DNA from: Hyunsoonleella ulvae
GTDB taxonomy: Bacteria > Bacteroidota > Bacteroidia > Flavobacteriales > Flavobacteriaceae
DNA length: 64,000 bases
Reading direction: 5' to 3'
NCBI RefSeq assembly: GCF_016827605.1
Contig: NZ_JAEPJQ010000003.1
Span: 1 to 64,000, forward strand
The position numbers and the translations under genes are program-made. Positions 3,345 through 35,003 of this stretch are shown here, in pieces. Under the pieces are notes generated by a model that saw only the letters and a list, made by a program, of their open reading frames with translations, was not told the origin of the DNA and searched no databases. How positions within the stretch are numbered: position 1 is the stretch's first letter; every line of letters starts with the position of its first letter.

Positions 3345-5693
3345 ATGGCAAAAGCAAAAAAAGAAACAGCCCCAGTAGAAAGCTTTTCAAAATATATAAG
3401 ATGGTTTTGGATGGTGTTTTTAGGGGGGATTTTTGGATTAATTCTAGTGTTTTTATTAGCGTCTTGGGGTGTACTTGGAGAAATGCCTGATCACACGGTT
3501 TTAGAAAATCCAAAAACTAATTTAGCTACTGAGATTATTTCTTCTGATGGTAAAACATTAGGTAAGTTTTATTTTAATGATAATAGAACACCTGTTGGTT
3601 ATGAAGAATTACCAGAACATTTAGTTGATGCATTAATAGCTACTGAAGATGTACGTTTTCATGAACATTCTGGTATTGATGCTAGAGGGACATTACGTGC
3701 TATAGCTAAGCTTGGTAAAGGTGGTGGTGCTAGCACAATATCACAACAATTGGCAAAACAACTTTTTACAGTTAAGGTCTCTAGCAGTAAATTTGAAAGA
3801 GTTTTTCAAAAAGTTAAGGAATGGATTATAGCTACACGTTTAGAACGTCAGTACACTAAAAAAGAAATTATAGCTCAGTACTTTAATATCTATGATTTTT
3901 TAAATAATGCTGATGGTATCAGAAGTGCTTCTAGCATTTATTTTGATAAAGAACCGAACGAATTAAGTTTAAAAGAGTCGGCAATGTTAGTTGGGATGTT
4001 TAAAAACGCTTCTTATTTTAATCCCAGAAAGTATCCTGAGAGAGTCAAGGATAGAAGAAATGTTGTGCTAGCGCAAATGTGTAAGTATGGTTATATAAAT
4101 GAAGCATTAAAAGATTCGCTTCAAAAAACAGAACTCGATTTAAAATATACGCCACAATCACATCGTGACGGAATTGCTACTTATTTTAGAGGATATCTAG
4201 CAACATTTATGAAAGACTGGATTAAGAAAAACCCAAAACCAGATGGCACTAAATGGAGTTTGTACAACGATGGTTTAACCATTTACACCACAATAGATTC
4301 CCGTATGCAACAGTATGCAGAGGATGCAGTACAGCAACATATGCCAAGGTTGCAGGCCGAATTTTTTGCACAGAATACACCAAAACGAAATCCAACGGCA
4401 CCTTTTTTAGAGTTAGATAATAAAGAGATAAAAGATTTGATGAATCGTTCTATGCGTCAATCAGAGCGTTGGCGACACATGAAATACGATTTAAAAAAAT
4501 CAAATGAAGAGATTATCGCATCTTTTCAAAAGCCAGTAGCAATGTCGGTTTTTGCATGGAAGGATGGAAAGCCATCAGAAATAGACACCATTATGAAGCC
4601 CATTGATTCTATGCGTTATTACAAATCGTTCTTGAGAACAGGTATGATGTCTATGGATCCACGTACAGGACATGTAAAAGCATGGGTAGGTGGTATGGAT
4701 TATAAGCATTTTCAATACGATATGGTAAAACAGGGTAAACGACAAATAGGGTCTACCTTTAAGCCTTTTGTGTATACCTCCGCAATAGATCAATTGCATT
4801 TTTCGCCATGCGATGAGTTTCCAGACACACCGTTTTGTATAGAAGCTAATAAATATGGTAATCCTGAAGAGTGGTGTCCTAAAAATTCAAATCATAATTA
4901 TGGTGGTAATCGCAGTTTAAAAAACGCATTAGCTAATTCTGTTAATACAGTTACTGCACGTTTAATTGATAAGGTTGGGCCACAAACTGTTGCAGATTTA
5001 GCCGTGAAATTGGGTGTAGAGTCTGAAATTCCTCCAGTACCGTCAATTGCTTTAGGTACACCAGATGTTAGCGTTTATGAAATGGTGGGAGCATATTCTG
5101 CTTTCGCTAATAAAGGGGTATACACCAAACCTGTAATGGTTACTAGTATTGAAGATAAAAATGGTACGATTTTATACCAATTTAAACCAGAGACTCGAGA
5201 TGTTTTAAGTGAAGAAACGGCTTATGTTGCAGTTAAACTTATGGAAGGTGTTACTCAAAGTGGCTCAGGATCTGGCTTACGTCATAATTACAAGAAAAAT
5301 TTTGCTGTCTATAAGAAAGTTGTAACTGGCTATCCTTATGAGTTTACTAATTCTATTGCTGGAAAAACAGGGACTACGCAAAACCAAAGTGATGGTTGGT
5401 TTATGGGCATGGTACCTAATTTAGTAACTGGAGTTTGGGTTGGTGGAGAAGAAAGATCTATACATTTTAGTGGTATAGGATATGGTCAAGGGGGTGTGAT
5501 GGCACTGCCAATTTGGGGTATTTATATGAAAAGCTGTTATGCTGATGAAAATTTAAATATTTCCAAAGAAGAGTTTGAGGCTCCAGAAAGCTTATCCATA
5601 ACAGTAGATTGCTCTAAAGCTACTGGGAAAACAGTGATAGATGGTAATGATTTAAAAGATGATGACATTCCCGAAGATTTAGACTTTGGTTAA
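3345..5693 (+). CDS. mrcA: Class A penicillin-binding protein 1A (bifunctional transglycosylase/transpeptidase)
   Basis: A 782-residue peptidoglycan synthase. One transmembrane segment at about residues 20-42 anchors it. The GT51 glycosyltransferase domain shows EDVRFHEHSGID (catalytic Glu101) and GGASTISQQLAKQLF, then RLERQYTKKEIIAQYFN. The transpeptidase domain has all three penicillin-binding motifs: S470-T-F-K, S532-V-N and K674-T-G-T. It is the third gene of the ricT-gldH-PBP1A group. It overlaps by 8 bases the LuxR-type gene that follows, which suggests one transcript. The class is certain; the choice of mrcA as symbol rather than another class A name is by convention. Confidence 0.95.
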   Translation: MAKAKKETAPVESFSKYIRWFWMVFLGGIFGLILVFLLASWGVLGEMPDHTVLENPKTNLATEIISSDGKTLGKFYFNDNRTPVGYEELPEHLVDALIATEDVRFHEHSGIDARGTLRAIAKLGKGGGASTISQQLAKQLFTVKVSSSKFERVFQKVKEWIIATRLERQYTKKEIIAQYFNIYDFLNNADGIRSASSIYFDKEPNELSLKESAMLVGMFKNASYFNPRKYPERVKDRRNVVLAQMCKYGYINEALKDSLQKTELDLKYTPQSHRDGIATYFRGYLATFMKDWIKKNPKPDGTKWSLYNDGLTIYTTIDSRMQQYAEDAVQQHMPRLQAEFFAQNTPKRNPTAPFLELDNKEIKDLMNRSMRQSERWRHMKYDLKKSNEEIIASFQKPVAMSVFAWKDGKPSEIDTIMKPIDSMRYYKSFLRTGMMSMDPRTGHVKAWVGGMDYKHFQYDMVKQGKRQIGSTFKPFVYTSAIDQLHFSPCDEFPDTPFCIEANKYGNPEEWCPKNSNHNYGGNRSLKNALANSVNTVTARLIDKVGPQTVADLAVKLGVESEIPPVPSIALGTPDVSVYEMVGAYSAFANKGVYTKPVMVTSIEDKNGTILYQFKPETRDVLSEETAYVAVKLMEGVTQSGSGSGLRHNYKKNFAVYKKVVTGYPYEFTNSIAGKTGTTQNQSDGWFMGMVPNLVTGVWVGGEERSIHFSGIGYGQGGVMALPIWGIYMKSCYADENLNISKEEFEAPESLSITVDCSKATGKTVIDGNDLKDDDIPEDLDFG

Positions 5694-25530: not shown

Positions 25531-28425
25531 ATGATGAAGTTATATCTTGAAAGCACTATTTCCAATACCTTTTATTGGAAATATAAGTGCTTCTTTTTCA
25601 TTTTTGTACTATGTTTTACTGGTATATCTCAATCGCAAACCAATACACCTATTGCCAATAAACAAGTTGACAAAAAGACCTACGCAGAAAAAATATATCT
25701 TCAACTTAGCAATACTATTTGTGCAACAGGAGAGACTGTTTGGTTTAAAGCTATTGTTACCAATACCTTAAATGTTCCATCAAAGCGAAGCGGTATTTTA
25801 CATGTAGAGCTTATAGATTTTGATGAAAATGTATTGAGCACTAAAAAGCTTAAGTTAGAAAACGGTATAGCAGAAAGTTTTTTTGATTTAGATGAAAAGC
25901 TACCCTCTGGCAGGTATTTGATAAGAGCCTATACTAAATGGAATAGAAATTTTGGGGCGGACTTTATTTTCAAGCAATATATAGATGTGTTTTCTATACA
26001 ACCTATAGAGAAACAAGATGTTATAACCGATATTGTATTAAGCGAAACAAATAATGACCAATTAAAAATAGCTGTAAAAATACACCCAGAACGTATTAAG
26101 GACGGTTATAATAAAGATTTAAAAATATACATTCTATCAGGAGATCTAAAGGATTCTGTAGAAGTAAAAAGAGTAGATAAACAATATGCATTAGAATATA
26201 GTGTTCCCAAAGATTTAATTAAGGTGGAACTAAAGGTACAGTTAGAAGATACCAAATTAAAAAACCGAAAGCGTAAGACTGAAAGTACCTACTCCAAAAC
26301 CATTGCTCTAAATAAGGATTTTTTAGACGTTCAATTTTTCCCTGAAGGCGGAAAAATGCTAGATGGGTTTACAAACAAGATAGCCTACAAATCTATTAAT
26401 TACAAAGGCCTAGGCGAAGTAATTAGTGGGCACATAGTTGATGAAAGCGATAGTACAGTTACCCATTTTACCACTAATAAATTGGGTATGGGATTCGTAT
26501 ATTTTAAACCAGATAAGCAAAAAAATTACTATGGTAAAATAATAAGAGCTAACGGAGTTGTGTATAAATACCCGTTACCTAAGGTAGTGCCACTTGGCTA
26601 TCTTTTAAGTGTCTCAGAAACCAGTAAGCACCTAAGTTTAAGTATAAAAAGCAAGATAAAAACAACGGACAGTCTTTATGTTGAAGTAAAAAGTAAAGGA
26701 GTATTAATTCAGCAACATAAATTTATATTAGAACAAGGGATTCATAAGGCTTTAATTAAAAAAGCACAATTACCCAATGGTATTATAAGTGTTACGCTTT
26801 TTAACAATAGTAAAGTACCAATAAGTGAACGTTTATTTTTCAATTTAGATGAAAAGAGCATATTAAATATAGCAGTAAAAGAAGACAAGACAATTTATGC
26901 GCAGCGGGATAAGACCATATTACATTTGGATTTTACTGATAAGGAAAATCAGGCAATTGTAACCAATTTTTCTGCACTAGTCATAGACAAGGCCAAACTA
27001 AACCCAAATGGAAGTGAGCATCCCAACATCTTATCTTATTTCTTGTTACATTCAGAGTTAAAGGGTTTTATAGAGAAGCCAGGTATTTATTTTGATACAA
27101 ATAATATGTATAGAAAGCGAGACTTGGATGCTTTGATGTTAACAAAGGGTTGGCGTAATTATGTATTTAGTAAAAGTGATACCAGTTATAATTTTGATAT
27201 ACAGCCAGAGACAGCTTTGAGTGTTTCGGGTAAAGTAAGATCTGCCTTTAATGATAAAAGACCACCTAAGAAAAAAGTAAATTTAACCATGCTTACCTCA
27301 GGAGAACCTCAAGGGCTTTATATGCTAACTACTGATAGCATAGGGAATTTTGTATTTAATTTAGGTAATCATTATGCTGATGCGCTAGATATCTTGATAC
27401 AATCTACAAATAAGAAGGGAAAGGCTAAACAAATTAGTTTTGAGCTAGACAAAGCCATCCCAATACCAGAGATAGCTTATGAGAGAGAAGAAGTTATAAC
27501 ATTACCTGATACTATCGTTACAGCATTTTTGAAGAAAAAGACAGAAGATAGACGTGCATCAGGAGGTTTTAACCTTTCTGATGATACAATAGAGCTAGGC
27601 ACAGTAGAGTTAACAGGATATAATGTAACACCAGAGCGTGAAAAATTATTTAAGTTACATGGGGCACCAGATGTAGTAATTGATAACGAAGAACTGGTTG
27701 AAGAAGAAGAAGGCTGGATGTCTGGATTATACGACCTGCTTAGAACTAAATTCCCTGATGATGTTTATTTTGAAAATGTAAGTTTCCCAGCTCAAGCATT
27801 TGGTATTGGGACTCACGACCCAGCGGTTACTCCTGCAGATACTATAGTTAAGTCTCTTGAAGTCCCCAAAATTGCAGAAACTAATGTTGCTTTTGTATTT
27901 ATTGATGGAGAAGTTGTTGAAGGTATAGATTATCCGTTATTGCCTTTTTTAGCAGTGGAAAACATAAAAAGTGTTGAGATTTTAAGACGACCTAATGGTA
28001 GTGTTTTACAGTATTATCAAGAGGCATTTCCTCGCCATGACCCTGTTGAGCTAGCAAAGGTAAGAGCATTAGCTCTTGTTGGAATTATTAGCATATACAC
28101 CTATGGCAGTAATGGCATTGCAGTGCTAGGAACCCCTAAAGGGGTGTTTAAAGGAACCATAGCTGGATTTTCAACCCAACGCGAATTCTATGCGCCCAAA
28201 TATGAAACATTAAAACCAGAGGATTGGGACATTCCAGATTTACGTTCGGTAATACATTGGATGCCTTCAATCTATACTAACGAAAAGGGAGAAGCACAAC
28301 TGGAATTCTATAATGATGATACTATTGGCGATAAATTAATTATCGTTGAAGCCATTACACCTGACGGAAAGATAGGGCATTATGAAACTTCCTATACTGT
28401 AGAAAAGCGATTGGAAAACAATTAA
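25531..28425 (+). CDS. MG2/plug-like cell-surface protein, paralogue B
   Basis: About 964 residues from ATG 25531; the open frame itself begins right after the stop of paralogue A. The architecture is the same as A: signal peptide, MG2-like domain (AEKIYLQLSNTICATGETVW), middle beta domains and a plug-like end (FIDGEVVEGIDYPLLPFLAV, IISIYTYGSNG). It carries an extra insert of about 30 residues (near PAQAFGIGTHDPAVTPAD) absent from A. It overlaps hemB, convergent, by 4 bases. The two genes are tandem duplicates, with a 54-base identical stretch near the 3' ends. Confidence 0.8.
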   Translation: MMKLYLESTISNTFYWKYKCFFFIFVLCFTGISQSQTNTPIANKQVDKKTYAEKIYLQLSNTICATGETVWFKAIVTNTLNVPSKRSGILHVELIDFDENVLSTKKLKLENGIAESFFDLDEKLPSGRYLIRAYTKWNRNFGADFIFKQYIDVFSIQPIEKQDVITDIVLSETNNDQLKIAVKIHPERIKDGYNKDLKIYILSGDLKDSVEVKRVDKQYALEYSVPKDLIKVELKVQLEDTKLKNRKRKTESTYSKTIALNKDFLDVQFFPEGGKMLDGFTNKIAYKSINYKGLGEVISGHIVDESDSTVTHFTTNKLGMGFVYFKPDKQKNYYGKIIRANGVVYKYPLPKVVPLGYLLSVSETSKHLSLSIKSKIKTTDSLYVEVKSKGVLIQQHKFILEQGIHKALIKKAQLPNGIISVTLFNNSKVPISERLFFNLDEKSILNIAVKEDKTIYAQRDKTILHLDFTDKENQAIVTNFSALVIDKAKLNPNGSEHPNILSYFLLHSELKGFIEKPGIYFDTNNMYRKRDLDALMLTKGWRNYVFSKSDTSYNFDIQPETALSVSGKVRSAFNDKRPPKKKVNLTMLTSGEPQGLYMLTTDSIGNFVFNLGNHYADALDILIQSTNKKGKAKQISFELDKAIPIPEIAYEREEVITLPDTIVTAFLKKKTEDRRASGGFNLSDDTIELGTVELTGYNVTPEREKLFKLHGAPDVVIDNEELVEEEEGWMSGLYDLLRTKFPDDVYFENVSFPAQAFGIGTHDPAVTPADTIVKSLEVPKIAETNVAFVFIDGEVVEGIDYPLLPFLAVENIKSVEILRRPNGSVLQYYQEAFPRHDPVELAKVRALALVGIISIYTYGSNGIAVLGTPKGVFKGTIAGFSTQREFYAPKYETLKPEDWDIPDLRSVIHWMPSIYTNEKGEAQLEFYNDDTIGDKLIIVEAITPDGKIGHYETSYTVEKRLENN

Positions 28426-29411
28426 GAGATCAATTTCACAACATCTTTAGCAAAATATGATGCTATAATATCTGCCCCAGCACGTTTAAAAGCTGTTGTG
28501 GTTTCCAGCATAATTTGGTCGTGATCTAGCCAGCCTTTTTCGGCAGCAGCTTTAATCATGGCGTATTCGCCAGAAACTTGGTATACGGCTACAGGTACAT
28601 CCACTTCGTTTTTTATCTCTCTTAGAATATCTAAATACGAAATTCCTGGTTTTACCATCACAATGTCAGCTCCTTCATCAATATCCATTTCGGTTTCTCT
28701 GATGGCTTCAAAGCGGTTACCATAATCCATTTGATACGTTTTTTTGTTCTTTGGAATATTTTGAACATCTACAGGCGCAGAATCTAAAGCATCCCTGAAA
28801 GGGCCATAAAATGCCGAGGCGTATTTAGCCGAATAACTCATAATTCCTGTGTTGGTAAAGCCTTCGTCTTCTAAAGCTTCACGAATGGTTAAAATACGGC
28901 CATCCATCATATCACTAGGTGCTACAAAATCAGCCCCAGCAGTAGCATGAGAAATACTCATTTCAGCTAGAAATTCTGCAGTTTCATCATTAACTATTTG
29001 TCCGTTTTCAATAATACCATCATGTCCGTAAACTGAGTATGGGTCTAAAGCCACATCCGTCATTACCAACATATCAGGGCACGCGTTTTTAACGGTTTTT
29101 ATAGCGCGTTGCATCAATCCGTTAGGGTTTAAGGCTTCTTTACCTGCGTTATCTTTTAAGTTATCAGGCACTTTTACAAATAACAATACCGATTTTAAAC
29201 CTAGTTTCCAGAGCTCTTTTACTTCGTTTTCTAGCAAATCTAAACTATACCGAAAGTAATTTGGCATAGATGGAATTTCATCTTTTACGCCCTTACCTTC
29301 TACCGCAAAAAGTGGGACTAAAAAATCGTTTGGTGTTATTATGGTTTCACGAACTAAAGCGCGAATGGCTTCGTTGGTTCTTAATCTTCGGTTTCTTCTT
29401 AGTGGATACAT
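28422..29411 (-). CDS. hemB: Delta-aminolevulinic acid dehydratase (porphobilinogen synthase)
   Basis: A 329-residue HemB that condenses two 5-aminolevulinate molecules to porphobilinogen in the cytosol. Catalytic lysines are Lys196 (MSYSAKYASAF) and Lys254 (VMVKPGISYLD). The metal-site region reads ALDPYSVYGHDG (121-132) in place of the Cys triad of zinc enzymes, so this is the zinc-independent, Mg/K-type form. It is the last gene of the minus-strand heme operon. The spacer before it is a repeat element whose end provides AGGGGG eight bases upstream of the ATG, an unusually strong Shine-Dalgarno-like sequence for this phylum. Confidence 0.95.
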   Translation of the reverse strand: MYPLRRNRRLRTNEAIRALVRETIITPNDFLVPLFAVEGKGVKDEIPSMPNYFRYSLDLLENEVKELWKLGLKSVLLFVKVPDNLKDNAGKEALNPNGLMQRAIKTVKNACPDMLVMTDVALDPYSVYGHDGIIENGQIVNDETAEFLAEMSISHATAGADFVAPSDMMDGRILTIREALEDEGFTNTGIMSYSAKYASAFYGPFRDALDSAPVDVQNIPKNKKTYQMDYGNRFEAIRETEMDIDEGADIVMVKPGISYLDILREIKNEVDVPVAVYQVSGEYAMIKAAAEKGWLDHDQIMLETTTAFKRAGADIIASYFAKDVVKLIS

Positions 29412-29567
29412 AAAATCCCCCTAGCCCCCAAAGGGGGAATGCCTATTAGGGGTAAATAGGGTTTAAGAGTTTCGCCTCTTTATTAAAAGAATTGAAACTA
29501 GTTGTTATTTTGTCAGCTAAACTTGTTCTCATAACAATAAGAGTTCCCCTTTTGGGGCTAGGGGGCT
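29406..29567 (-). repeat. MITE-like element with inverted-repeat ends between hemF and hemB
   Basis: The spacer is bounded by inverted copies of CCCCCTAGCCCC. The copy at 29413-29434 reads CCCCCTAGCCCCCAAAGGGG; the other, at 29544-29566, is its inverse with small changes. Each end is itself a small palindrome (CCCC/GGGG). The hemF stop codon TAG and its last codons lie in one end, and the Shine-Dalgarno-like AGGGGG of hemB lies in the other. Between them is a 28-codon frame (29446-29532) that I do not count as a gene. About 160 bases in total. Confidence 0.6.
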
Positions 29568-31087
29568 TCTACCCACTCTTTAGGGTTTTTCAATACGTCT
29601 ATTAATTTTTCTTCTTCGCTACCTGCTTTAGGATGATGATCGTACACCCATTGTACATGAGGCGGTAAACTCATTAAAATACTTTCTATACGCCCGTTGG
29701 TTTTTAGTCCGAATAGCGTTCCTTTATCATGCACTAAATTAAACTCTACGTATCGACCACGACGTATCTCTTGCCAATCACGATGCGTCTTAGTGTATGG
29801 CAAATCCTTGCGTTTTTCAACTATGGGCACATAAGCTTCTAAAAAGCTATTACCAACTTCGGTTACAAAGTTATACCAATTTTCCATAGTCATACCTTTC
29901 GTGGCTTTACAATAGTCAAAAAAGAGGCCCCCAATACCTCGGCCTTCGTTTCTGTGGGCATTGTAGAAATACTCATCGCAACGTTTTTTATAGGTTGTAT
30001 AAAACTCAGGATTGTGATTATCGCAAGCTGTTTTACAGGTTTGATGGAAGTGTGTTGCGTCCTCTTCAAATAAATAATATGGTGTTAAATCTTGACCACC
30101 ACCAAACCACTGGTCAATAATTTTTCCATTGGCATCATACATTTCAAAATAACGCCAATTGGCGTGTACTGTAGGCACCATTGGACTTTTAGGATGTATT
30201 ACCAAGCTTAACCCGCAGGCAAAAAAATCAACATCGCCAACCTTAAAATAGGCTTGCATAGATTTTGGCAGTTTTCCATGAACGCCTGAGATATTTACAC
30301 CGCCTTTTTCAAAAATAGTACCGTTTTCTATAACACGTGTACGTCCGCCACCACCTTCTGGTCGTTTCCAAATATCTTGCTGAAATTTAGCTTTACCATC
30401 AATAGCTTCTAGCTTGGAGGTAATGCTATCTTGTAAATCTTGTATGTATTGGTAGAATTTGTCTTTCATAGATGTTATAGAATTCAAACCTACAAGGTCT
30501 TTGAGACCTTGCAGGTTGTGACTAGAGCTTTCTTCTTGACCTGCAAGGTTTTGGAAACCTTGTAGGTCTGATTGATGAGCAAACTTAAAATTTGCTAGAT
30601 TTTCAAAAAGATTTAAAATATAGTTTCTTTCAAGAGATAGTTTTGAAGGAAACTCAGTGAAATAAGAATTATAAGACGAGAAATAATACTCTTTAAAGTC
30701 TTTAACTACACCATGAATTTCAGGGTTTTTATGTACATAGAGTACTGAATTTTTCAAATAAGTCTCGTCGACAATTTTTTTCCTTTTGAAATGCTTTTCA
30801 AACAAACTCCCCGTTCTTCTTTGTTGTTTATTGAAAGCTTTAGCGTAGGAATTAAATAGATTGGATAAAGCTTGAGTAGCCTCTTTTTCATCCTGAATAA
30901 TTTTAACTACGAAATGAAAATGATTGTTCATTAAACAGTAAGCAATGATTTCGACTTTAAAGGATAAGTGCTTGTCCATTAACTTTAGAAAATAAGACAT
31001 ATTATCTTCAGTTAAAAAAATATCATGACTGTCTATCCCTCTGTTGAAGATATGATAGTAATTGTCTTTTTCTAGCTTTTCTAGCAT
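29558..31087 (-). CDS. hemF: In-frame fusion: RAYT (IS200-like REP transposase) plus coproporphyrinogen III oxidase HemF
   Basis: One open frame of 509 residues holds two complete modules. Residues 1-170 are an IS200-like Y1 transposase of the REP-associated (RAYT) group: the HUH motif is CLMNNHFHFVVK (His56, His58), and YVHKNPEIHG (Tyr118 a candidate nucleophile) follows. Residues 171-206 are a linker whose codons include two REP palindromes. Met207 (ATG at 30467-30469) begins a normal full-length HemF of 303 residues with MKDKFYQYIQDLQDS, then PEGGGGRTRV, WFGGGQDLTPYYL and RRGRYVEFNLVHD. HemF oxidises coproporphyrinogen III to protoporphyrinogen IX using O2. Either the fusion is made, or hemF is translated from its own ATG; the latter seems likelier. 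Confidence 0.9.
   Translation of the reverse strand: MLEKLEKDNYYHIFNRGIDSHDIFLTEDNMSYFLKLMDKHLSFKVEIIAYCLMNNHFHFVVKIIQDEKEATQALSNLFNSYAKAFNKQQRRTGSLFEKHFKRKKIVDETYLKNSVLYVHKNPEIHGVVKDFKEYYFSSYNSYFTEFPSKLSLERNYILNLFENLANFKFAHQSDLQGFQNLAGQEESSSHNLQGLKDLVGLNSITSMKDKFYQYIQDLQDSITSKLEAIDGKAKFQQDIWKRPEGGGGRTRVIENGTIFEKGGVNISGVHGKLPKSMQAYFKVGDVDFFACGLSLVIHPKSPMVPTVHANWRYFEMYDANGKIIDQWFGGGQDLTPYYLFEEDATHFHQTCKTACDNHNPEFYTTYKKRCDEYFYNAHRNEGRGIGGLFFDYCKATKGMTMENWYNFVTEVGNSFLEAYVPIVEKRKDLPYTKTHRDWQEIRRGRYVEFNLVHDKGTLFGLKTNGRIESILMSLPPHVQWVYDHHPKAGSEEEKLIDVLKNPKEWVEAP
30487..30517 (-). repeat. REP palindrome 1 at the RAYT-hemF joint
   Basis: The arms AACCTACAAGGTCT and AGACCTTGCAGGTT pair with a single mismatch around a TTG loop. 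On the coding strand it is translated as residues 191-200 (NLQGLKDLVG). It lies 18 bases before the internal hemF ATG, so a hairpin here could affect internal initiation or transcript stability. Confidence 0.85.
30538..30568 (-). repeat. REP palindrome 2 at the RAYT-hemF joint
   Basis: GACCTGCAAGGTTT pairs with AAACCTTGTAGGTC around a TGG loop, with one mismatch. It has the same core as REP 1 and 3 and is translated as residues 174-183 (DLQGFQNLAG). It is separated from REP 1 by 20 bases, giving a paired, BIME-like unit. Confidence 0.85.
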
Positions 31088-31099
31088 TTTATTTTTTTT

Positions 31100-31133
31100 A
31101 TACCTACAAGGTTTTTAAAACCTTGCAGGATAT
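31100..31133 (-). repeat. REP palindrome 3 upstream of the RAYT start
   Basis: ACCTACAAGGTTTT and AAAACCTTGCAGG form a hairpin with a one-base loop and one mismatch. It lies 12 bases upstream of the RAYT ATG and after the GNAT stop codon. It shares the ACCTRCAAGGT half-site with REP 1 and 2, so REPs flank the transposase on both sides. Confidence 0.85.
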
Positions 31134-31144
31134 ACCTTAATTCA

Positions 31145-31687
31145 TTATTCAATTTCCTTATATAGTTCATACAACTCCATATCCATAGGTGTTTCGTTAG
31201 GAGGTGTATACTCATTTTTAAGTGTTTTTATGTGTGTAAAATTACAGTTTTCAGCAACTTTTAAACTTCCTATATTATTTTTATGAACGATGATTTGTAA
31301 AGTTTCTAAACCCAAAATTTCAAAAGCATAATCTGATAATTTTTCTATAGATTTTGTCATCAAACCTTTACCCTCTATATTATAATCTATAGCATAAGCA
31401 AATTCGCCTTGTTTTTTAATCCAATCTATAGCTTTGATATAAACTAATCCTACTAATTTATGATGTTTAGTCTCTTTGATAGTAAACAAAAACTCTTCTT
31501 TTGTGCCAAATCGCTTTGTTTTTTTTTCAACGAAAATTTTTGATAACTCTGGGGTTAGGTTTTGCTCTAAAGTTTTTGGAAAGTAACGCTTTAAACGATC
31601 TTCATTAGCTACACAAAAGTTGCAAACAGCCCATGCGTCCTTTAAGTTAATTGGAGCTATATAATATTGCTCTAAATTAAGATACAT
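31145..31687 (-). CDS. GNAT family N-acetyltransferase (RimJ/RimL-like)
   Basis: A 180-residue acetyltransferase of the RimJ/RimL group. The fold signature is visible as EFAYAIDYNIEGKGLMTKSI (motif A, acetyl-CoA pyrophosphate loop) and LETLQIIVHKNNIGSLKVAE (motif B), with the final CNFTHIKTLKNEY strand. The substrate (a protein N-terminus or small molecule) is unknown. It overlaps the EI24 gene by 11 bases and precedes the RAYT-hemF frame, so it is part of the heme operon transcript. An EI24-GNAT-hemF order is familiar to me from other flavobacteria; its link to heme is unexplained. Confidence 0.85.
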   Translation of the reverse strand: MYLNLEQYYIAPINLKDAWAVCNFCVANEDRLKRYFPKTLEQNLTPELSKIFVEKKTKRFGTKEEFLFTIKETKHHKLVGLVYIKAIDWIKKQGEFAYAIDYNIEGKGLMTKSIEKLSDYAFEILGLETLQIIVHKNNIGSLKVAENCNFTHIKTLKNEYTPPNETPMDMELYELYKEIE

Positions 31688-33793: not shown

Positions 33794-33860
33794 AACGTAT
33801 TAAGGTTGTTTATGTAAAAATAAGCCTTTTAAAACTAAAATTAGGTTATTAAACCTAAGC

Positions 33861-33974
33861 TCTGCGTTAGGGATTGAGGGGTTTGTTGAAGCTCCCCGAC
33901 AGAGGAGGAGCGACTCCCGAAAGCCTGCCGGCAGGCAAGCCCGACCACGCCCGTGGCGTGGAAACGCCCAAAGT
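33861..33974 (-). repeat. Copy 3 of a GC-rich interspersed repeat, inverted
   Basis: Read on the minus strand it starts TTTGGGCGTTTCC, contains GGTCGGGC and ends AATCCCTAACGCAGAG. The internal short palindromes CACGCCACGGGCGTGG and GCCTGCCGGCAGGC differ from copy 2. It begins 3 bases after the hemE stop codon and lies between hemE and trkH. A spurious short frame (33800-34021) runs through it. Confidence 0.6.
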
Positions 33975-33977
33975 ATT

Positions 33978-35003
33978 TTAGCTTCCGTATTCTTTAACAG
34001 CATCAATAAATGCTTTGGCATTATCTAAACCTATATTTGGCAAAATACCATGGCCTAGGTTTACAATGTATTTATCCTTCCCAAATCCGTTAATCATTTG
34101 GTGTACCATTTTTTTAATTTCTGCGGGTGGAGAGAACAAACGTGTGGGATCAAAATTACCTTGCAATGTGATGTTGCCTCCTGTTAAATAACGAGCGTTT
34201 CTTGCAGAACAAGTCCAGTCTACACCCAATGCCGAAGCACCAGATTTAGCCATTTCGCCTAATGCAAACCAACAGCCTTTTCCAAAAGCAATAACTGGAG
34301 CGTCGTCTTTTAAAGCATCAATTATTTGATTAATATATTGCCACGAAAATTCTTGATAATCGGTAGGCGATAACATACCTCCCCAAGAATCGAAAACTTG
34401 TACTGCATTACAACCTGCTTTTACTTTTTCTTTTAAATAGGCAATTGTAGTATCTGTAATTTTTTGAAGCAATTCGTGTGCCGCAACAGGGTTTGTAAAG
34501 CAAAACTCTTTAGCTTTATCAAAGTTTTTACTGCCTTGTCCTTGCACACAATAACAAAGAATCGTCCAAGGCGAACCTGCAAAACCAATTAATGGAATTT
34601 CATTATTAAGCTTTTCTTTGGTGGCTTTTATGGCTTGGTATACGTAATCTAGCTCTATTGTTACATCTGGAACAATTACATTATCTACATCTTTTTGAGA
34701 GCGCACGGGGTTTGGTAAATACGGACCAAAATTAGGTTTCATCTGCACCTCGATATTCATGGCTTGTGGAATAACCAAAATGTCACTAAATAAAATGGCG
34801 GCATCCATACCGTATCTGCGAATAGGTTGTACGGTAATTTCACTGGCTAATTCTGGGGTTTGGCAACGCGTAAAGAAGTCGTACTTTGCTTTAATTTCCA
34901 TGAATTCTGGCAAGTAGCGCCCCGCTTGACGCATCATCCACACTGGTGGACGGTCTACTGTTTCTCCTTTTAATGCTCTTAAAAATAAATCGTTTTTTAT
35001 CAT
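33978..35003 (-). CDS. hemE: Uroporphyrinogen decarboxylase
   Basis: A 341-residue HemE that removes four acetate carboxyls from uroporphyrinogen III to give coproporphyrinogen III. The N-terminal signature [17 protein letters not shown] contains the active-site Arg pair. The G-F-A-G-S-P-W-T loop, the F-D-S-W-G-G segment and G-H-G-I-L-P near the end are all in place. The length fits the family. It follows the four-helix-bundle gene in the heme operon. Its stop codon is 3 bases from a GC-rich repeat. Confidence 0.96.

Follow-up and report, generated by a model that had tools for sequence, protein, structure and literature searches.

RAYTs, the TnpA_REP-like HUH tyrosine transposases, have been described as single-copy domesticated transposases that are inherited vertically over millions of years and whose exact function is unknown (PMC8049555). 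In isolated cases, RAYTs have been suggested to spread by horizontal transfer (PMC3686654). In the accessible part of a 2018 survey, the RAYT/TnpA_REP systems (REPtrons) of Bacteroidetes fall into subclasses 2.4 and 2.6, and in-frame REPs inside RAYT genes are described for subclass 2.4 (PMC6006769). The same part of the survey gives median RAYT lengths of 148 to 325 amino acids by subclass and states that unexpectedly long proteins were discarded as "gene fusions or annotation errors" (PMC6006769).

The window analyzed here, 64,000 nucleotides of Hyunsoonleella ulvae (contig NZ_JAEPJQ010000003.1, positions 1 to 64,000), contains one such long protein. A minus-strand open reading frame of 509 codons at 29558-31087, with no interrupting stop, holds a RAYT, a linker, and a complete HemF in one frame (Table 1). 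A sequence-only reading of this DNA had claimed this uninterrupted frame, the HUH histidines and YVHKNP of the transposase, and a complete HemF from Met207, and all of these are present where it placed them. The Pfam family Coprogen_oxidas (PF01218) matches residues 211-505 over profile positions 2-295 of 295 (447 bits), and the HemF domain is therefore complete; the NCBIfam model for the oxygen-dependent enzyme (NF003727) scores 419 bits, with a cut-off of 297. For the RAYT part, Y1_Tnp (PF01797) matches residues 10-118 with 19.6 bits, under its 23-bit cut-off, and with 23.1 bits, over the cut-off, in a six-frame search. REP_Tyr_transpos (NCBIfam NF047646) gives 52.9 bits, below its 80-bit cut-off. 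Intein families were absent from the Pfam and NCBIfam scans of the 509-residue protein at E 0.01. The genes on the minus strand run in the order hemE, two membrane-protein genes, the GNAT-like gene, RAYT-hemF, and hemB; apart from RAYT and HemF, these names are ones we presume from the translations.

Table 1. Positions of the RAYT-hemF frame and neighboring features in the window
Feature	Position	Strand	Remarks
RAYT (TnpA_REP-like HUH tyrosine transposase) domain	30572..31087	-	Residues 1-172; HUH His56/His58, catalytic-type Tyr117 in YVHKNP; Pfam/NCBIfam matches, fold match to 4er8
Linker	30470..30571	-	Residues 173-206; mostly two translated REP palindromes (SDLQGFQNLAGQEESSSHNLQGLKDLVGLNSITS)
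HemF (oxygen-dependent coproporphyrinogen III oxidase)	29558..30469	-	Residues 207-509 and stop; own ATG kept (30467-30469)
REP palindrome 1, within linker	30539..30566		Palindrome search
REP palindrome 2, within linker	30488..30515		Palindrome search
REP palindrome upstream of RAYT	31102..31129		Palindrome search
Segment (671 bp) present in window, missing from RAYT-free site of G006	30470..31140		In G006 the left and right homology blocks abut, sharing 5 nt
ATGAA left of the 671-bp segment	31141..31145	-	Same as ATGAA at HemF start (30465-30469); old hemF start remnant, small duplication, or chance
GNAT-like gene	31145..31687	-	Name presumed from its sequence
hemB, next gene downstream of RAYT-hemF	28422..29411	-	Name presumed from its sequence

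How does this protein compare with the described ones? Taken as a group rather than by subclass, and as far as the accessible part of the survey describes them, Bacteroidetes RAYTs share with the present one the HUH motif with a single tyrosine, hairpins on both sides, and copies elsewhere in the genome; unlike the surveyed RAYTs, this one is joined to HemF, in its relatives often without a separate HemF start (PMC6006769). The HemF part has the complete domain and fold of its family (PF01218, NF003727). It differs from an ordinary HemF in its 206-residue N-terminal extension and in the loss of its own ATG in 25 of 34 fused relatives. A RAYT-HemF fusion was not found in the open-access literature, judged by titles and the beginnings of abstracts. 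In-frame REPs in RAYT genes were already known; a conserved fusion of a RAYT to a housekeeping enzyme was likewise not found in that literature.

The fused frame recurs. It is present in 4 of 12 genomes of the genus (G000, G008, G009, and G010), and the other 8 have HemF without an adjoining RAYT. At a threshold of E 1e-15, RAYT matches were obtained in 61 of 397 genomes of the family. In 17 of the 397, from 16 genus groups, the RAYT belongs to an open frame, 490-553 codons long, that runs on into HemF; these counts would overlook very diverged RAYTs. HemF itself was detected at E 1e-60 in at least 331 of these genomes. A scan of named genomes kept 80 loci, 22 of them fused, from Algibacter, Flavivirga, Hyunsoonleella jejuensis, Hanstruepera, Aestuariivivens, Gelidibacter, Winogradskyella, and MAGs. 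With identical proteins counted once, 34 distinct fused ORFs were obtained among 144 loci, and the fused frame was repeated in both isolates and MAGs. Read errors, which had been feared around the junction, are in practice rejected because the same frame stands in other genomes. A RAYT-HemF fusion through a translated mobile repeat is present in a number of flavobacteria.

In a tree of 84 of the 111 RAYT rows, 71 fell in one group (SH-aLRT 95), comprising 34 fused RAYTs, 34 unfused RAYTs that lie upstream of hemF in the same orientation, and 3 without hemF in the locus examined. Identical repeats, alignments of 120 residues or fewer, far relatives (L117 on), and L015-L017, L019-L022, and L035 were omitted from the tree, and L054 was set to "linked" by its coordinates. 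The RAYT of G425 lies between what we take to be hemD and hemE, the same place as in G018, a linked case; that of Gramella sp. AN32 (L109:4001-4546) sits just upstream of a polA-like gene; L110 is the third clade member without hemF in the locus examined. In Flavobacterium, one or two small genes stand between RAYT and hemF. This RAYT lineage is strongly, not wholly, tied to the hem region. Broken unfused RAYTs were also seen in the family, namely, in two Flavobacterium genomes (L119 and L120), where the RAYT that precedes hemF is divided between two frames, and in G277 and G024 of the family sample, whose RAYTs contain stops. The H. ulvae genome has one copy of this RAYT type, and some relatives have a second match. 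As far as the source's accessible text goes, the RAYT resembles the domesticated transposases in being single copy in its own genome, in keeping its catalytic residues, and in its long tie to one chromosomal region, and differs from them in the exchange of the module at the same site, the second match in some relatives, and an upkeep through fusion to a host gene that appears visible here (PMC8049555).

With two palindromes in the linker and a third upstream, the RAYT is flanked by REPs on both sides, and the two palindromes inside the linker make its peptide largely REP DNA read in frame. In the H. ulvae genome, this REP occurs at a total of 9 places, 6 of them beyond the three at the gene, and a reversed control pattern occurs at none; 9 places are few for a busy REP system. 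Another REP type is found in relatives at up to about 25 places among the matches listed, with none listed in G009 and G006. Perfect REP-like stems of at least 8 occur in 22 of the 34 fused linkers compared with 0.1 of 34 after shuffling, and upstream of 21 of the 34 fused genes compared with 1.0 of 34, the shuffles preserving single-base composition alone. Linker length ranges from 16 to 48 codons across the 34 distinct fused genes. The fused frame of the linker is stop-free in all 34 by definition; the other two forward frames are open in just 5/34 and 1/34, and openness by chance was rejected on these counts. Elsewhere in the window, a small ORF beside hemE (33800-34021) encodes an ACLPAGF-like peptide, perhaps, by its presumed resemblance, a further family of palindromic repeats.

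We then asked what the site looks like without the RAYT. In 4 of the 8 genus genomes without a RAYT at hemF (L027-L030), the stop of the GNAT-like gene abuts the hemF ATG. Compared with G006, the window carries 671 extra base pairs (30470-31140) with ATGAA on both sides; by eye, no clear counterpart of this flanking 5-nt repeat was seen in the other junctions compared. Several neighboring arrangements may represent steps to fusion. In Polaribacter L078, HemF follows the RAYT in the same frame after a single stop, the TAA of the REP loop, a position that reads GAA, CAA, or AAA in fused linkers with a recognizable REP. In L042, the RAYT stop and the HemF start overlap as ATGA. Seonamhaeicola L068 has almost the same DNA as the fused H. 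jejuensis gene, with an extra 4-nt repeat unit that shifts the frame and with the ATG intact. The loci thus include a natural series from sites without a RAYT, through an adjacent RAYT, overlapping frames, and frames one stop apart, to fusions that keep the ATG and fusions that lack it. Left of the RAYT in Flavivirga amylovorans L069 (∼3820-4000), the REP linker and first HemF codons occur a second time in broken form, which gives the appearance of a module inserted next to a fused copy that was already there.

On the basis of these observations, we consider it likely that a REP-RAYT-REP unit settled upstream of hemF, became fused to it through its own REP, and tied its upkeep to the heme gene. 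The unit (a REPtron) would have inserted between the GNAT gene and hemF, and its downstream REP copies, open in one frame, would have turned into a flexible linker through which the RAYT frame reached HemF. A 509-residue RAYT-linker-HemF polypeptide would then be made from the RAYT start, presumably as a whole in this strain. Its HemF part would perform the usual heme step, and its RAYT part, which keeps the HUH nuclease residues, may remain active. After fusion, the HemF ATG was lost more than once. Once that ATG is gone, a stop or frameshift in the RAYT costs HemF too, so that expression and upkeep of the transposase would be secured. The advantage of the fusion would thus be RAYT upkeep, not heme regulation. 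HemF would shield the fused RAYT from stops and frameshifts, more so after ATG loss, and unfused RAYTs are sometimes broken (L119, L120). The RAYT module has nevertheless passed between species at the hemF site.

To what extent do RAYT and HemF travel together? As a rule, the RAYT evolves faster than HemF. Between H. jejuensis and an Algibacter, DNA identity was 96.8% in the RAYT, 83.2% in hemF, and 79.1% upstream; between Winogradskyella sediminis and W. endarachnes, the corresponding values were 98.6, 87.1, and 90.9%. Synonymous divergence in RAYT versus HemF was 0.078 versus 1.373 in the first pair and 0.034 versus 1.009 in the second. The alike stretch of the first pair begins 24 bp before the end of the GNAT gene and fades out inside hemF, over its first 30 bp, a part of the gene that is well conserved in any case; that of the second runs from a palindrome on the left to the HemF start. 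Among unfused RAYTs, some Flavobacterium and Arenibacter pairs are also alike in the RAYT beyond HemF. RAYT dS was smaller than HemF dS in 13, larger in 5, and undefined in 1 of 19 pairs that were hand-picked and mostly close relatives. Of 109 pairs preselected by shared RAYT 12-mers, 33 were more alike in the RAYT than in HemF, 11 of them by at least 5 points. Strict vertical inheritance of the whole fused gene is contradicted by pairs such as L005/L067 and L103/L104, and constraint is an unlikely cause of the low synonymous change in the RAYT, as RAYT dS was not below HemF dS in five diverged pairs. These comparisons support well a recent exchange of the RAYT module at the hemF site without HemF. 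Homologous recombination between the flanks would give a similar pattern.

Two further observations concern H. jejuensis. Around RAYT-hemF, L123 of this species and Seonamhaeicola aphaedonensis L068 are 96-100% identical in 16 of 17 250-bp windows (about 1251-5500 of L123), and most alignable flanking windows are 78-87% identical, which points to recent transfer of a larger tract. The HemF domain of L005 carries a 7-residue in-frame insertion (YPSTPLRAGEPREII), which we take to resemble another translated repeat.

Inteins and homing endonuclease genes place a mobile nuclease in frame with a conserved gene and are exchanged between species at one site. The RAYT module shares both features, and its distribution is of the homing type, with one site that carries exchanged copies in some species and has no copy in others. 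Unlike an intein, the RAYT stands at the N terminus and not inside the host protein, and any homing by it is hypothetical. One tentative extension, which we regard as possible but would not favor, is that the RAYT is a start-capturing homing element that inserts at the hemF start and supplies a new start and a REP linker, leaving the host addicted without toxin or antidote once the ATG is gone. If true, a single-copy "domesticated" transposase would have here a novel means of persisting and of moving from one species to another.

Is HemF made only as part of the fusion? The HemF first codon is ATG in 9 of 34 fused genes, compared with 33/33 unfused genes with an upstream RAYT (33 of 35 linked loci had enough HemF to be included) and 8/8 without a RAYT, that is, 41/41 unfused genes. 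The 25 non-ATG codons are ATC (14), ATA (4), TTA (2), ACC (2), TTT (1), GTC (1), and CTC (1), and 19 of the 34 fused genes have no ATG, GTG, or TTG between −18 and +30 codons of the HemF start. In G008, of the window's genus, the codon is already TTA. The ATG state requires 7 changes on each of the RAYT and HemF trees, at least 3 of them forced by supported branches; the trees are quick ones with many weak forks, and the "fused" state needs 6 and 14 changes on them. On these data, HemF in fused genes without a start of its own is probably made only together with the transposase, and a translated fusion very probably exists in many species.

An alternative explanation is internal initiation, in which translation of a separate HemF begins within the transposase message and the joined frame has no role of its own. 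The 9 retained ATGs, that of the window included, would allow this. Of the other 25 starts, 18 are ATC or ATA, possible weak starts that may rarely initiate HemF, and the frames of L042 and L068 overlap as in coupled translation. However, 7 of the 34 fused genes read TTA, ACC, TTT, GTC, or CTC where all 41 unfused genes keep ATG, and the linker is rarely open in the other frames, so we consider internal initiation doubtful as a general account. The sequence-only reading had offered a bifunctional protein or an internal start: because 25 of 34 fused genes have lost the HemF ATG, the lineage leans to the fusion, and in the window itself, which has kept its ATG, both a fusion and a separate 35-kDa HemF are possible.

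HemF had also been called essential, a description that is not supported in this genome. HemN over the family cut-off was detected in 23 of 25 genomes tried, that of H. ulvae included; in G010 and G358, among those 25, it was not found. HemF as the sole coproporphyrinogen oxidase was accordingly rejected; with HemN present there are two routes, and HemF serves the oxygen-dependent one. An aerobe should nonetheless pay a price for losing HemF.

The claim that the transposase is intact is supported insofar as it looks intact. Across the 34 fused genes, His58 and Tyr117 are invariant and His56 is present in 33; L047, with Gln in its place, retains the frame without an intact HUH and is a counterpoint to the upkeep reading. 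RAYT dN/dS was 0.08-0.14 in five fused pairs with RAYT dS above 1, and 0.26-0.67 in close pairs, on very few changes. The diverged pairs suggest that the RAYT is under purifying selection. The predicted structure of the fusion has a mean pLDDT of 58.5, with residues 134-204 under 50. Foldseek on this low-confidence model matched the N-terminal part to 4er8, a REP-bound RAYT (E 5.5e-5; TM [target] 0.57), and the model also matched HemF structures; a PDB sequence-profile search with the RAYT gave no match at E 0.01. The RAYT domain is presumably still able to act on REP hairpins. According to the accessible part of its description, the RAYT of E. coli touches the GTAG foot of the REP with two of its C-terminal tail residues (PMC8266576), and by analogy the joining of HemF at that end may matter. 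One answer to the long retention of RAYTs can be read here, in that a fused heme gene whose own start is often lost makes the RAYT frame costly to lose. With the natural series and the module exchange at hand, how a gene fusion arises and how a domesticated transposase is maintained can both be tested directly.

The shared frame would tie transposase expression to heme synthesis, as the sequence-only reading had proposed. Does the coupling benefit the host? Under the main functional alternative, the RAYT would regulate HemF or the heme pathway, for instance, through its binding to the REP hairpin of its own gene or transcript. The occurrence of the RAYT clade in the hem region across many genera, unfused members included, and the REP hairpins at the fusion point are consistent with this. 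Nevertheless, 8 of 12 genus genomes have hemF without an adjoining RAYT, the fusion was found in 17 family genomes against at least 331 of 397 with HemF (a count that would overlook very diverged RAYTs), the module moves between species independently of HemF, and one clade member adjoins polA. We therefore regard a regulatory role that profits the host as unlikely. Two last alternatives, an error of assembly or sequencing and the chance read-through of a decayed transposase, can be dismissed: the broken unfused RAYTs noted above (L119, L120, G277, and G024) show that decay occurs in the family, but the fused frame is repeated in isolates and MAGs, its catalytic residues are conserved, and diverged pairs point to purifying selection.

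Other RAYTs were seen in frame with other proteins. In L162:3-1556 (G695), Y1_Tnp precedes the C-terminal part of RecG in frame at a contig edge, which could be an assembly join. In L161:1176-4829 and L159:2031-5648, the two scanned of at least four RAYT frames over 1100 amino acids, Y1_Tnp lies in frames of ∼1200 residues with DUF1156 or N6_N4 methyltransferase domains. In L145:3106-6000 (G257), another RAYT is in frame with a PIF1-like helicase and an HRDC domain; the linker between them appears to be REP encoded (THTVTQSHGVSMTLK), and a similar stretch occurs inside its RAYT.
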